Shown here: in pieces, positions 3,999 through 46,409 of the stretch
How the letters are laid out: every line of letters starts with the position of its first letter
Numbering within the stretch: the stretch's first letter is position 1
Assembly (NCBI RefSeq): GCF_000156655.1
Contig: NZ_DS996848.1
Span: 23,409 to 69,817, forward strand
Source of the DNA: Holdemanella biformis DSM 3989
GTDB taxonomy: Bacteria > Bacillota_I > Bacilli_A > Erysipelotrichales > Erysipelotrichaceae
Reading direction: 5' to 3'
DNA length: 46,409 bases
Notes under the pieces: generated by a model
Told to the model about the DNA's origin: nothing
The model's database searches: none
What the model saw: only the letters and a program-made list of their open reading frames with translations
Program-made: the position numbers and the translations under genes

Positions 3999-4117
3999 TT
4001 GACCCTCCATGAACCTTTCTAATATTATCGTACTTAAAATTTTGATATAGCACAATTTCGTTAATTGGTATTTTATCATTATTTGTTAACACAGAAGGAA
4101 AGGAAAAGGAGTATTAT

Positions 4118-4162
4118 ATGAATAGAACTACTACAAGACTACTACTTGCAGATGTGTTCTGA
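4118..4162 (+). CDS. Leader peptide MNRTTTRLLLADVF upstream of an attenuator
   Basis: A 14-residue ORF preceded by a very strong AAAAGGAG site. It contains three Thr codons in a row and, after one Arg, three Leu codons. The stop codon abuts the terminator hairpin at 4164. GTGTT inside the ORF (4154-4158) can pair with AACAC (4164-4168), which is also the 5' arm of the terminator, giving mutually exclusive structures. This is the layout of ribosome-mediated attenuation; the inducing signal is unknown. Confidence 0.5.
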   Translation: MNRTTTRLLLADVF

Positions 4163-4208
4163 AAACACTCCTCTCCGTCTAACTAACGGAGTCTTGGGTG
4201 TTTTTTTT
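4163..4208 (+). terminator. Attenuator terminator before the TOTE helicase
   Basis: AACACTC pairs with GGGTGTT and, after a small internal loop, CTCCGT pairs with ACGGAG around a 7-base loop; eight T residues follow the stem. It sits between the 14-codon leader and the helicase start at 4255. I see no convincing separate promoter between the hairpin and the helicase, so helicase transcription probably depends on readthrough. Confidence 0.75.
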
Positions 4209-4254
4209 ATTAACTAATTCAATTAAAATAGTATTGAAAAGAGTAGGTGGTTTT

Positions 4255-43435: not shown

Positions 43436-43468
43436 TCGGTAGGTTTTCTGTCCAAGTTGGTACTTGAT

Positions 43469-43496
43469 TTGCACAAAATAATTTCTTTGTTAGAAT
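43469..43496 (+). promoter_or_regulatory. Candidate promoter of the ankyrin/EF-G-like locus
   Basis: TTGCAC, 16-bp spacer, TAGAAT. Predicted start near 43503, so the transcript would have about 24 bases before the leader ORF. The -35 matches consensus poorly. Confidence 0.5.
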
Positions 43497-43526
43497 GAAA
43501 TCAGGTTAGACAAAGGAGTGATTGAG

Positions 43527-43598
43527 ATGAATCAAGTTCAAGGTGTAAAATTAAATAAAATTTCAATCTTTTCTTTGTACATATGTAAACTGGGGTGA
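43527..43598 (+). CDS. Leader peptide, 23 aa, ending inside a terminator stem
   Basis: ATG at 43527 with AAAGGAG eight bases before it. The peptide begins MNQVQGVKLNK and continues ISIFSLYICKLG. The part IFSLYIC resembles, over seven residues, the stalling segment IFSIFVI of the ermC macrolide leader, which may be chance. The last three codons and stop (AAA CTG GGG TGA) are exactly the 5' arm of the following terminator. The design suits ribosome-controlled attenuation of the downstream genes. Confidence 0.55.
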   Translation: MNQVQGVKLNKISIFSLYICKLG

Positions 43599-43616
43599 AC
43601 TATCATTCCAGTTTTT
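43587..43616 (+). terminator. Attenuator terminator before ankyrin gene
   Basis: AAACTGGGGTGA pairs with TCATTCCAGTTT (12 bp, two G-U pairs) around ACTA, followed by TTTTT. A ribosome on the last leader codons would prevent the stem. No promoter is apparent between the hairpin and the ankyrin gene 43 bases on. Confidence 0.8.
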
Positions 43617-43658
43617 CTGTGATTTCATGAACAATAAAGGATGAGGAGGATGATTGAA

Positions 43659-44330
43659 ATGGATCAGAATTTTAATAAGGTATTTTGGGATGCATGCGCA
43701 AATGGTGATTTCCCAATGGTTTGTTCTCAAATCAAAGCAGGGGCAGATGTAAATTATCAGAATGGTGATGGACGTACAGCTTTGATGCGTGCAAGTAAAC
43801 GTGATCGAAAAGATGTTGTACAGGTTTTACTTGATAATGGGGCAGATGTGAATATTACAGATAATAAAGGGAAAACAGCTTTGATGACAGCTGCAAAAAA
43901 AGGCAATAAAACAATCTTAAAGGCTTTGATTGATGCAGGGGCAGATGTAAATGCCAAAGATGATAGAGGTCGTACAGCTTTAATGCGTGCTTGTTTATTA
44001 GGACAAGATCGTTGTGTTGAAGTGTTATTAGATGCTGGGGCAAGAATCAATGATCAAGATGAAGTAGGTCGTAGTGCTTTAATGGAAGCTTGTATCGCAT
44101 TTAAACGTGACACAATTCACTTATTGCTTGAAAGAAACGCCGATGTGAATTTATTTGATAATAATGGTGTAACTGCATTGATGCGTGCTGCTTATGGTGG
44201 ATATCCAAGTTTAGTTGAAAAATTATTGGCGTATGGAGCTGATAAAGATATGACAGATAAACAAGGTCGTGTTGCATTGGATTATGTTCGTGAACATTGT
44301 AGAGCTCAATTAGAGCCTATCTTAAGATGA
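43659..44330 (+). CDS. Ankyrin-repeat protein
   Basis: A 223-residue protein built of about six ankyrin repeats, each with G-x-TALM-x-A and a hairpin such as LLDNGADVN, ALIDAGADVN or LLERNADVN. No signal peptide or membrane helix, so it should be a cytoplasmic protein-binding scaffold. ATG 43659 with GAGGAGG nine bases before. The EF-G-like gene follows after 10 bases, pointing to an operon; a role as its partner is an inference. Confidence 0.92.
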   Translation: MDQNFNKVFWDACANGDFPMVCSQIKAGADVNYQNGDGRTALMRASKRDRKDVVQVLLDNGADVNITDNKGKTALMTAAKKGNKTILKALIDAGADVNAKDDRGRTALMRACLLGQDRCVEVLLDAGARINDQDEVGRSALMEACIAFKRDTIHLLLERNADVNLFDNNGVTALMRAAYGGYPSLVEKLLAYGADKDMTDKQGRVALDYVREHCRAQLEPILR

Positions 44331-44340
44331 GGTTAAGCGT

Positions 44341-46409
44341 ATGAGAGATTATCAAAGTTTTGAAGTACGTAACGTAAGCGTAATCGGACATAGTGGAGCA
44401 GGAAAAACAAGTGTATTAGAAGCTATGTTGTATTATACAAAGGCAACAGATCGTTTTGGAAAAACAACAGAAGGAAGTTCAATGATTGATTTTGACACTG
44501 AAGAAATTCGTCGTGGCCTATCTGTTTATACAACTATTGTTCCAATTGAATGGGAAGATAGTAAGATTAATTTTATTGATACACCAGGTTATTTAGACTT
44601 CGTTGGTGAAAAACAAGGTGGTTTTTCAGTTGGTGATTCAAGTTTAATTGTAGTCAATGCCAAAGATCCTTTACAATCAGGAACAAAACTTGCGTATAAA
44701 CAAGCCGTTGCTGAAAAGAAACCTACTATTTTCTTTATTAATAAATTAGATGAAGAACACACAAGCTTTGATGCTAGTTATCAAGCGTTGCGTGAAGAAT
44801 TTGGTAAAAGTGTTATTCCGTTTGAAGTTCCTATCGTTGAAGATGGAAAAATCGTTGGATCTGTAAATATCATTAAAAATAAAGCTTGGTATTACAGTCC
44901 AGAATTAGCGGATAAACCATGTCCAGTTCCAGAATCTATGCAAGAAGAAGTGGCTCTATATAAAGATCAGATTGCAGAAGCTGTAGCTATGGGGGATGAT
45001 GAATTAATGGAAAAATTCTTCTCTGGTGAAGAATTTAGTGATGCAGAATTAAAACGTGGTGTTCGAATTGGTGTGCGTAATGGAGAAATTTGTCCAGTAT
45101 ATTCTGGTAGTGCAGTTAATTCAATTGGTATTCAACGTTTGATGGATTTAATCGTTAGTTATTTCCCAACATATTCAGAAAGAGGTATGTATACAGCTAC
45201 AACTCCAAATGGTGTTAAAGTGGAATTGTTGACAAGTGAAACGGAAGTTTTAACAGCGCAAGTATTTAAAACAATCGTAGACCCATTTGTTGGAAGAATT
45301 AGCTATGTCAAAGTATTGAGTGGTGTGCTTGCAGCTGATAGTACAGTAGTGAATGCCAATAATGGTAAACCAGAAAAGATCAGTCAAATCTATATTGTTA
45401 AGGGTAAACATCAGACAGCGGCTGGTAAATTATTTACAGGTGATATTGGAGCTTTAGTTAAGTTACAAAACACAAAGACAAATGACACTTTGTGCGATAA
45501 AGGTAAATTGTTGATGGCTGATCCAATCACATTCGATACGCCAATGTATGGTCAGGCTGTTTTACCTAAGACTAAAAATGATGAGGATCGTTTATCAAAT
45601 GGTCTTGCTCGTTTACAAGAAGAAGATCCAACATTTAAAGTTGTGAATAATCCGGAAACAAAAGAAACAGTGATTTATGGTATTGGTGATCAGCATTTAG
45701 ACGTGATTGTGAATAAATTAAATTCTAAATTTAAAGCTGAAGTTGTCTTAAGTAATCCAAAGGTTACTTATCGTGAAACCATCACAAAGACAGCTATTGG
45801 TGAAGGTCGTCATAAAAAACAATCGGGTGGACATGGACAATTTGGACATGTATTTGTAGAATTTAGTCCTAATCCTGATGAAGAAGAAATGGTATTTGCA
45901 GAAAAGGTATTTGGTGGAGCTGTTCCTAAACAATATTTTCCAGCTGTTGAAACGGGTCTTCGTGAATGTTGCCAAAAGGGTCCTTTAGCAGGATATAAGA
46001 TGGTAAATGTAAAAACTACATTGTTAGATGGTAAATATCATGATGTTGACTCAAGTGAAATGGCATTTAAGATGGCTGCTCACTTAGCTTATAAAGATGC
46101 GATGACAAAAGTTCGTCCAATCTTATTAGAACCAATCATGAATGTCAAGATTCGTGTTCCAGATGAATTTACAGGTGCTGTCATTGGTGATTTGAACAAG
46201 CGTAGAGGTTCAATCATGGGTATGACTCCAGTGGATTCAGATCAAGAAATTGATGCACAAGTTCCTATGGCAAACATGTCTAGATATTGTGTTGAACTTA
46301 GAAGTATGACAACTGGTTTAGGAACATATACAATGGAAATGGACCGTTATGATCCAGTACCAGAACCTTATGCTTCAAGAGTGATTGAAGAGAGCAAGAA
46401 AGAAAAAGA
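44341..46409 (+). CDS. EF-G-like translational GTPase (FusA2-type), 3' end beyond window
   Basis: Starts MRDYQSFEVRNVSVIGHSGAGKTS. The reading frame stays open for 689 codons up to the window edge. G1 is GHSGAGKTS, where canonical EF-G has the GHIDAGKTT form; G3 is DTPGYLDF, G4 NKLD, and the switch I region reads EEIRRGLSVYTT. Domain II (VFKTIVDPFVGRISYVKVLSG), domain III, domain IV (YRETITKTAIGEGRHKKQSGGHGQFGHV) and domain V (LLEPIMNVKIRVPDEFTGAVIGDLNKRRG) are all present. This fits the EF-G-like branch found beside the true fusA in many Gram-positives, function unknown. The true fusA should be elsewhere (in the str operon). Confidence 0.92.
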   Translation, partial: MRDYQSFEVRNVSVIGHSGAGKTSVLEAMLYYTKATDRFGKTTEGSSMIDFDTEEIRRGLSVYTTIVPIEWEDSKINFIDTPGYLDFVGEKQGGFSVGDSSLIVVNAKDPLQSGTKLAYKQAVAEKKPTIFFINKLDEEHTSFDASYQALREEFGKSVIPFEVPIVEDGKIVGSVNIIKNKAWYYSPELADKPCPVPESMQEEVALYKDQIAEAVAMGDDELMEKFFSGEEFSDAELKRGVRIGVRNGEICPVYSGSAVNSIGIQRLMDLIVSYFPTYSERGMYTATTPNGVKVELLTSETEVLTAQVFKTIVDPFVGRISYVKVLSGVLAADSTVVNANNGKPEKISQIYIVKGKHQTAAGKLFTGDIGALVKLQNTKTNDTLCDKGKLLMADPITFDTPMYGQAVLPKTKNDEDRLSNGLARLQEEDPTFKVVNNPETKETVIYGIGDQHLDVIVNKLNSKFKAEVVLSNPKVTYRETITKTAIGEGRHKKQSGGHGQFGHVFVEFSPNPDEEEMVFAEKVFGGAVPKQYFPAVETGLRECCQKGPLAGYKMVNVKTTLLDGKYHDVDSSEMAFKMAAHLAYKDAMTKVRPILLEPIMNVKIRVPDEFTGAVIGDLNKRRGSIMGMTPVDSDQEIDAQVPMANMSRYCVELRSMTTGLGTYTMEMDRYDPVPEPYASRVIEESKKEK

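Follow-up and report, generated by a model that had tools for sequence, protein, structure and literature searches.

Several described leaders resemble the one analysed here. The rli80-hflXr leader of Listeria monocytogenes has a short ORF and an intrinsic terminator before the gene of a GTPase that acts on the ribosome, and its ribosome-dependent attenuation involves a 14-aa ORF, an RLR arrest motif and an antiterminator/anti-antiterminator (PMC6310831). Similarly, the vmlR leader of Bacillus subtilis contains a uORF with a Shine-Dalgarno sequence (SD) and a terminator and places a translation-protection factor under ribosome-mediated control, and there the uORF lies within an anti-antiterminator and is accompanied by two separate hairpins, one for pausing and one that sequesters the SD (PMC9226507). 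In the trp, his and ilv attenuators, the translation of a leader with a run of regulatory codons sets the fate of an intrinsic terminator that has a competing antiterminator, while in the ermC leader, whose start and ORF pair internally, the position of the ribosome is the signal and an arrest peptide controls translation of the methylase. As for a spare EF-G, the gene fusA2 (EF-G2) of the gut commensal Bacteroides thetaiotaomicron is under carbon control by BT4338, a transcription activator that binds the promoter; a leader attenuator and an ank gene are not described there (PMC6989115). EFG II paralogues are widespread, and their role was termed unknown in a survey (PMC4342817). Moreover, a survey of attenuators mentions EF-G only in the leader of the rpsL-fusA operon (PMC2965389), and our literature searches found no description of the leader presented below or of ank-EF-G operons.

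The window (the whole stretch of 46,409 nucleotides from Holdemanella biformis DSM 3989 that was analysed) ends in the operon ank-EF-G2, which is preceded by a leader with two traits of the ribosome-mediated transcription attenuators, namely a conserved SD-led short ORF and an intrinsic terminator before the first gene; control of termination by the ribosome position is predicted from geometry. The features of this locus are as follows:

43468..43496, + strand: promoter candidate from a consensus scan, -35 TTTGCA and extended -10 TGTTAGAAT
43511..43529, + strand: leader SD/start region, 5' partner (A) of the self-pairing helix, from computed pairing
43527..43598, + strand: leader ORF of 23 codons, MNQVQGVKLNKISIFSLYICKLG, with the stop TGA at 43596-43598, read from the sequence
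43559..43578, + strand: segment inside the ORF, AATTTCAATCTTTTCTTTGT, 3' partner (B), complementary to the leader SD/start, from the duplex calculation
43587..43616, + strand: predicted intrinsic terminator (5' arm 43587-43598, loop 43599-43602, 3' arm 43603-43614), from the fold
43643..43649, + strand: SD of ank, GAGGAGG, read from the sequence
43659..44330, + strand: ank, ankyrin-repeat protein, gene 1 of the operon (Pfam Ank_2, 9e-56)
44341..46409, + strand: EF-G2, EF-G paralogue of the EFG II type by its motifs, running past the end of the window and of the contig (NF009381, 5e-257)

Direct reading and folding confirmed the order given in an earlier note on this DNA, that is, a promoter candidate, a 23-codon ORF with a strong SD and a 12-bp terminator. 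The candidate promoter combines the -35 hexamer TTTGCA (43468-43473) with the extended -10 TG-T-TAGAAT (43491-43496), scoring 9/12 with a spacer of 17 nt, and 52 of 57 relatives have a TANRAT box at -75..-14 from the start of the leader. The SD core of the leader, AAAGGAG (43512-43518), is strong. The terminator hairpin (43587-43614) has 12 pairs and a 4-nt loop, and its U-tract (43612-43616, then CTG) is short, being only TTTTTCTG. Its 5' arm, AAACTGGGGTGA, reads AAA CTG GGG TGA, i.e. the leader codons K-L-G followed by the stop, exactly as the same note had described it. This hairpin is absent from the generic terminator scan; it is present in the fold and recurs in relatives. No Rfam covariance-model match was found in the window, nor in ten homologous loci at E<=1. 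In addition, the promoters of the clade to which the window belongs (window 43454-43470; L012, L015, L051, L068, L070 and L073) have TTGTCC..TTGGTACTTGATTTG in common over and upstream of the -35, and the TTG-type motifs at these sites, spaced about one helical turn apart, resemble an activator site.

The two downstream genes are those named earlier, an ankyrin-repeat protein and an EF-G-like GTPase, as seen from the matches to Ank_2 and to NF009381 and the EFG domains. The Pfam profile match makes Ank a plain ankyrin-repeat protein, and its start is best placed at 43659 (MDQ, kept in orthologues). The best profile for EF-G2 is NF009381 (5e-257), with Pfam EFG_IV, EFG_C and EFG_III also matched, and all five EF-G domains are present. 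The other EF-G of the genome, encoded directly 5' of an EF-Tu-like gene (G000:C29), shows 37% identity to EF-G2. The switch II motif of EF-G2 is DTPGY and not DTPGH, and the Tyr is found in 44/44 relatives from the family and the class with a readable motif (DTPGY was sampled in the window, L178-L206 and L255-L271). Switch I reads RGLSV in the window and is of the RxxS type in nearly all relatives. The hallmark of EFG II is the relaxation of the G2 motif RGITI to xxxSx (PMC3150367), and EF-G2 is, judged by its DTPGY and RxxS motifs, an EFG II paralogue. Furthermore, GTPase activation and phosphate release are among the processes in which PMC4532990 gives the switch-II histidine a role, and the presence of Tyr at the place of this catalytic His suggests altered GTP hydrolysis.

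Of 273 Erysipelotrichaceae genomes, 237 encode an orthologue of Ank, and EF-G2 lies directly 3' of ank wherever coordinates of both are listed. We gathered 153 family regions upstream of ank, and a hairpin with a U-tract precedes ank in 149 of them, nearly always at a distance of 20-60 nt. The leader start was picked by SD strength alone, blind to frame; dereplication to one leader per 65% identity group left 58 leaders, and the other-frame controls were read from after the ATG (ATGA would be an immediate stop in the +1 frame). With kinship shared among the leaders, a crude dereplication by identity and heuristic calls of terminators and starts, the leader ORF is open up to the hairpin in 54/58 (12 and 12 in the other frames, 17.5±3.2 in dinucleotide shuffles), and its stop lies between -12 and +14 nt relative to the hairpin edge in 44/58 (3 and 5 in the other frames, 10.0±2.7 in shuffles). 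On this comparison the ORF-on-terminator architecture before ank-EF-G2 is beyond chance, and the look at the intergenic region of relatives that had been proposed as a check shows both the short ORF, in its frame and stop position, and the terminator kept across the family. The clean version of the leader is missing in about 10-20% of the family members, and one genome (G198) has ank-EF-G2 without a terminator before ank. The gene 5' of the leader differs between genera, so the leader element belongs to the ank-EF-G2 operon and travels with it. The window and about 0.71 Mb from other contigs, together about 0.75 Mb or roughly 30% of the genome, contain 738 genes. A scan of these found 120 with a terminator 14-110 nt upstream, and only 2 of these 120, the ank leader included, have a short SD-led ORF that ends on the terminator. 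Such a leader is rare elsewhere in the scanned 0.75 Mb. The sole other match of the scan is an element at 4095-4212 (+ strand) of the window with the SD AAAAGGAG and a 14-codon ORF MNRTTTRLLLADVF, which ends directly before a strong hairpin with a T-run, shortly 5' of a 997-aa helicase-like ORF.

The frame and stop of the leader ORF are kept while its peptide drifts. Substitutions between close leader pairs number 76/65/75 at codon positions 1/2/3, with a pN/pS of 0.76, and by this measure the leader peptide is under close to no amino-acid constraint and is not the sensor. The leader of H. porci (L010), the nearest named relative with 99% identity in Ank, has a one-base insertion compared with the window; the nucleotides TTTCAATCTTTTCTTTGTACATATGTAAACTGGGG are identical and are read there as ..NFNLFFVHM*, and the stop lies one base 5' of the stem, the same hairpin being reached despite the change of frame. 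The segment IFSLYIC, which had been likened to the ermC stalling segment IFSIFVI, occurs in the window only. The frame change in H. porci and the drift of the peptides, with no selection at the amino-acid level, indicate that this likeness is due to chance, and the ermC-like arrest segment was dropped. An RLR-type macrolide arrest motif was found in 0/50 leaders; likewise, the leaders contain no run of regulatory codons of the trp/his type, and no residue is enriched in them beyond the common hydrophobic ones. A slippery U-run before the stop (TTTTTTAA), seen in one clade, was also dropped, since the other clades do not have it. The leaders of clade g31 (L099-L175) carry a block TCTTTTCGGCGGGGTTG (LFGGV) about nine codons 5' of the stop, in which third positions are kept too.

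Comparison between the leaders also revealed a feature that the earlier note had missed, the predicted self-pairing of the leader start. In the window, the A:B pairing amounts to -17.3 kcal/mol (z -3.8). Over 50 dereplicated leaders, pairing of the SD/start with the ORF of the same leader has a mean z of -1.39±0.19, and the mean dG with the own partner is -14.4, compared with -11.25±0.34 when the partners are swapped between species (9 SD). The same holds within clades, own versus swapped values being -18.5 versus -13.25±0.6 in the window clade, -12.1 versus -11.0±0.34 in g31 and -15.4 versus -11.9±0.3 in the others. Moreover, variants of the SD, read by comparison, change together with their partners: AAGGAGT with ACTCTTTT, AAGGAAGT with ACTTCTTT, AAAGAGGT with ACCTCTTTT, and AAGGGAG with CTCCTTT. 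Pairing of the ORF or the start with either terminator arm, as in an antiterminator, shows no excess over shuffles (mean z -0.19 to 0.09), which is a statistical negative, and neither does pairing across the leaders that would hide the ank SD. A long helix in the window fold that joins the ORF to the region of the ank SD was rejected because it is not a family feature, and the consensus RNA fold of the g31 clade contains the terminator only.

To calculate how a ribosome at the leader stop would meet the terminator, its A site was placed on the stop codon and its front edge was set 16 nt away from the first base in the P site, which is the toeprint distance of PMC9226507. In this model at least half of the stem pairs are masked in 46/56 leaders and all pairs in 40/56, whereas the same masking calculation with other-frame stops gives 9/111; in the window and in H. 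porci the entire stem is masked. The earlier idea that a held ribosome blocks the terminator thus stands as to the geometry and the conserved ORF, stop and terminator before ank and an EF-G paralogue, and falls as to the arrest peptide. We assume, with a probability of roughly 0.64, that the leader is a peptide-independent, translation-gated transcription attenuator of ank-EF-G2. The leader would be transcribed and, by default, the intrinsic terminator directly before ank would stop the transcript (OFF). A ribosome loading on the strong leader SD would arrive at the stop and cover the 5' arm of the terminator, and if it is there while the polymerase makes the 3' arm, the terminator would remain unfolded and ank-EF-G2 would be transcribed (ON), the identity of the leader peptide being irrelevant. 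The SD/start would pair with its own ORF about 30-50 nt downstream, and the start would soon shut unless a ribosome has already loaded, which would restrict the gate to an early-loading ribosome. That the terminator functions in the cell and that ribosome occupancy leads to readthrough is what we infer from sequence, and the sign (translation gives readthrough) follows from the geometry of the stop on the terminator arm. The leader would in this way report the translation status to the spare EF-G, and a high ribosome supply, slow termination/recycling or drug-slowed ribosomes would each suffice to place a ribosome on the stop at the right time. The mechanism assumes a certain timing of polymerase and ribosome; in Firmicutes the polymerase is often ahead of the ribosomes, and the gate may therefore require a pause.

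Compared with rli80-hflXr, the ank leader has no peptide motif and no antiterminator signal, and its stop lies inside the terminator arm. Unlike the vmlR uORF, the ORF of the ank leader itself comes to its end on the terminator, with its own SD in the predicted sequestering helix. It shares with the trp, his and ilv attenuators the proposed dependence of an intrinsic terminator on leader translation, but has neither a regulatory codon run nor a competing antiterminator signal. As in ermC, the leader start would pair with the ORF and the ribosome position would be the signal; however, a transcription gate with a free peptide is proposed here. If this is true, it would be attenuation at its minimum, consisting of a stop in the terminator arm, a self-closing start and a drifting peptide, and such elements would escape screens that are based on arrest motifs, codon runs or antiterminators. 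A more specific version, conceivable and at present doubtful, is that the leader gauges ribosome termination/recycling or EF-G function: a ribosome lingering because EF-G/RRF action or GTP is short would mask the terminator and turn the spare EF-G on, forming a homeostatic loop over carbon-catabolite control with no peptide, antiterminator or protein regulator.

Other explanations account for part of these observations. Where attenuation is of the classical trp type, the terminator is favoured once the leader has been fully translated, and by analogy translation of the ank leader could favour termination, either because the ORF is kept from other structures or through quick release at the stop, so that loss of translation would give readthrough. 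We regard this opposite sign as unlikely, since no alternative structure needing prevention was found and the stop is on the terminator arm, so that a ribosome at this place would impede folding and not help it. The parts list of uORF, terminator and gene for a ribosome factor is the same as in rli80-hflXr (PMC6310831) and vmlR (PMC9226507), which would agree with a drug-responsive arrest attenuator of the erm/hflXr/vmlR kind, in which the terminator is blocked by a ribosome that a macrolide, a lincosamide or a like drug has arrested on a particular nascent peptide, the version put forward in the earlier note. This is quite unlikely, however, given that there is no conserved peptide or arrest motif, that the nearest relative lacks IFSLYIC owing to its change of frame, and that no antiterminator signal was found, though both of those systems use one. 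It could also be thought that the leader is an independent small gene for a small protein or an sRNA, as it is equipped with a promoter, an SD, an ORF and a terminator of its own and a transcript ending at 43616 would resemble a small gene; ank-EF-G2 would then be expressed by constant leaky readthrough and be unregulated at this point. Yet the peptide drifts and differs between clades while the frame and the stop on the hairpin are kept, and the element stays with ank-EF-G2 while the upstream gene varies, which makes this very unlikely. Autoregulation is frequent among the operon leaders of translation genes, and the covariation that keeps the leader start structured would suit a protein (e.g. 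EF-G2, Ank or a ribosomal protein) that binds it and exerts feedback on leader translation. Nevertheless, the paired sequences vary between clades with no common motif beyond the SD, and there is no Rfam match, so that control by a protein seems highly improbable.

Apart from the translation-gated attenuator, which remains our preferred reading, the relatives have a further feature that had been overlooked, namely cre-like boxes. With at most one mismatch allowed, 23 of 48 relatives have such a box 5' of the leader, where mononucleotide shuffles predict 0.34, and 12 of 15 genomes from outside the family have one 5' of EF-G2, where 0.13 are expected. The boxes (TGNAANCGNTNNCA) overlap or adjoin the promoter, for example in L017, L045, L074 and L089, and outside the family in L272-L285 and L207. 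The promoter region of the window contains no clear cre, its best CcpA candidate being below the curated cut-off. Judged by these boxes, a CcpA-type operator probably adds carbon control in many relatives and would bring EFG II under such control in this class, which would be the counterpart of the control of fusA2 in B. thetaiotaomicron. A family-wide leader coupling EFG II expression to ribosome behaviour, together with the cre boxes, would tell when these factors are wanted. Inspection of the genomes outside the family by eye showed neither a leader ORF with terminator nor an ank gene directly 5' of EF-G2. The cre boxes 5' of EF-G2 in these leader-less genomes make catabolite control of EF-G2 look older and the leader look like an addition in Erysipelotrichaceae. 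In addition, the EF-G2 start in genomes from outside the family (AAGGAGCGTGAT..ATG; L207, L272 and L273) resembles the leader start of the Merdibacter group (GGAGCGTGGT..ATG; L053 and L074-L076), and the leader may be derived from an ancestral EF-G2 promoter and start.
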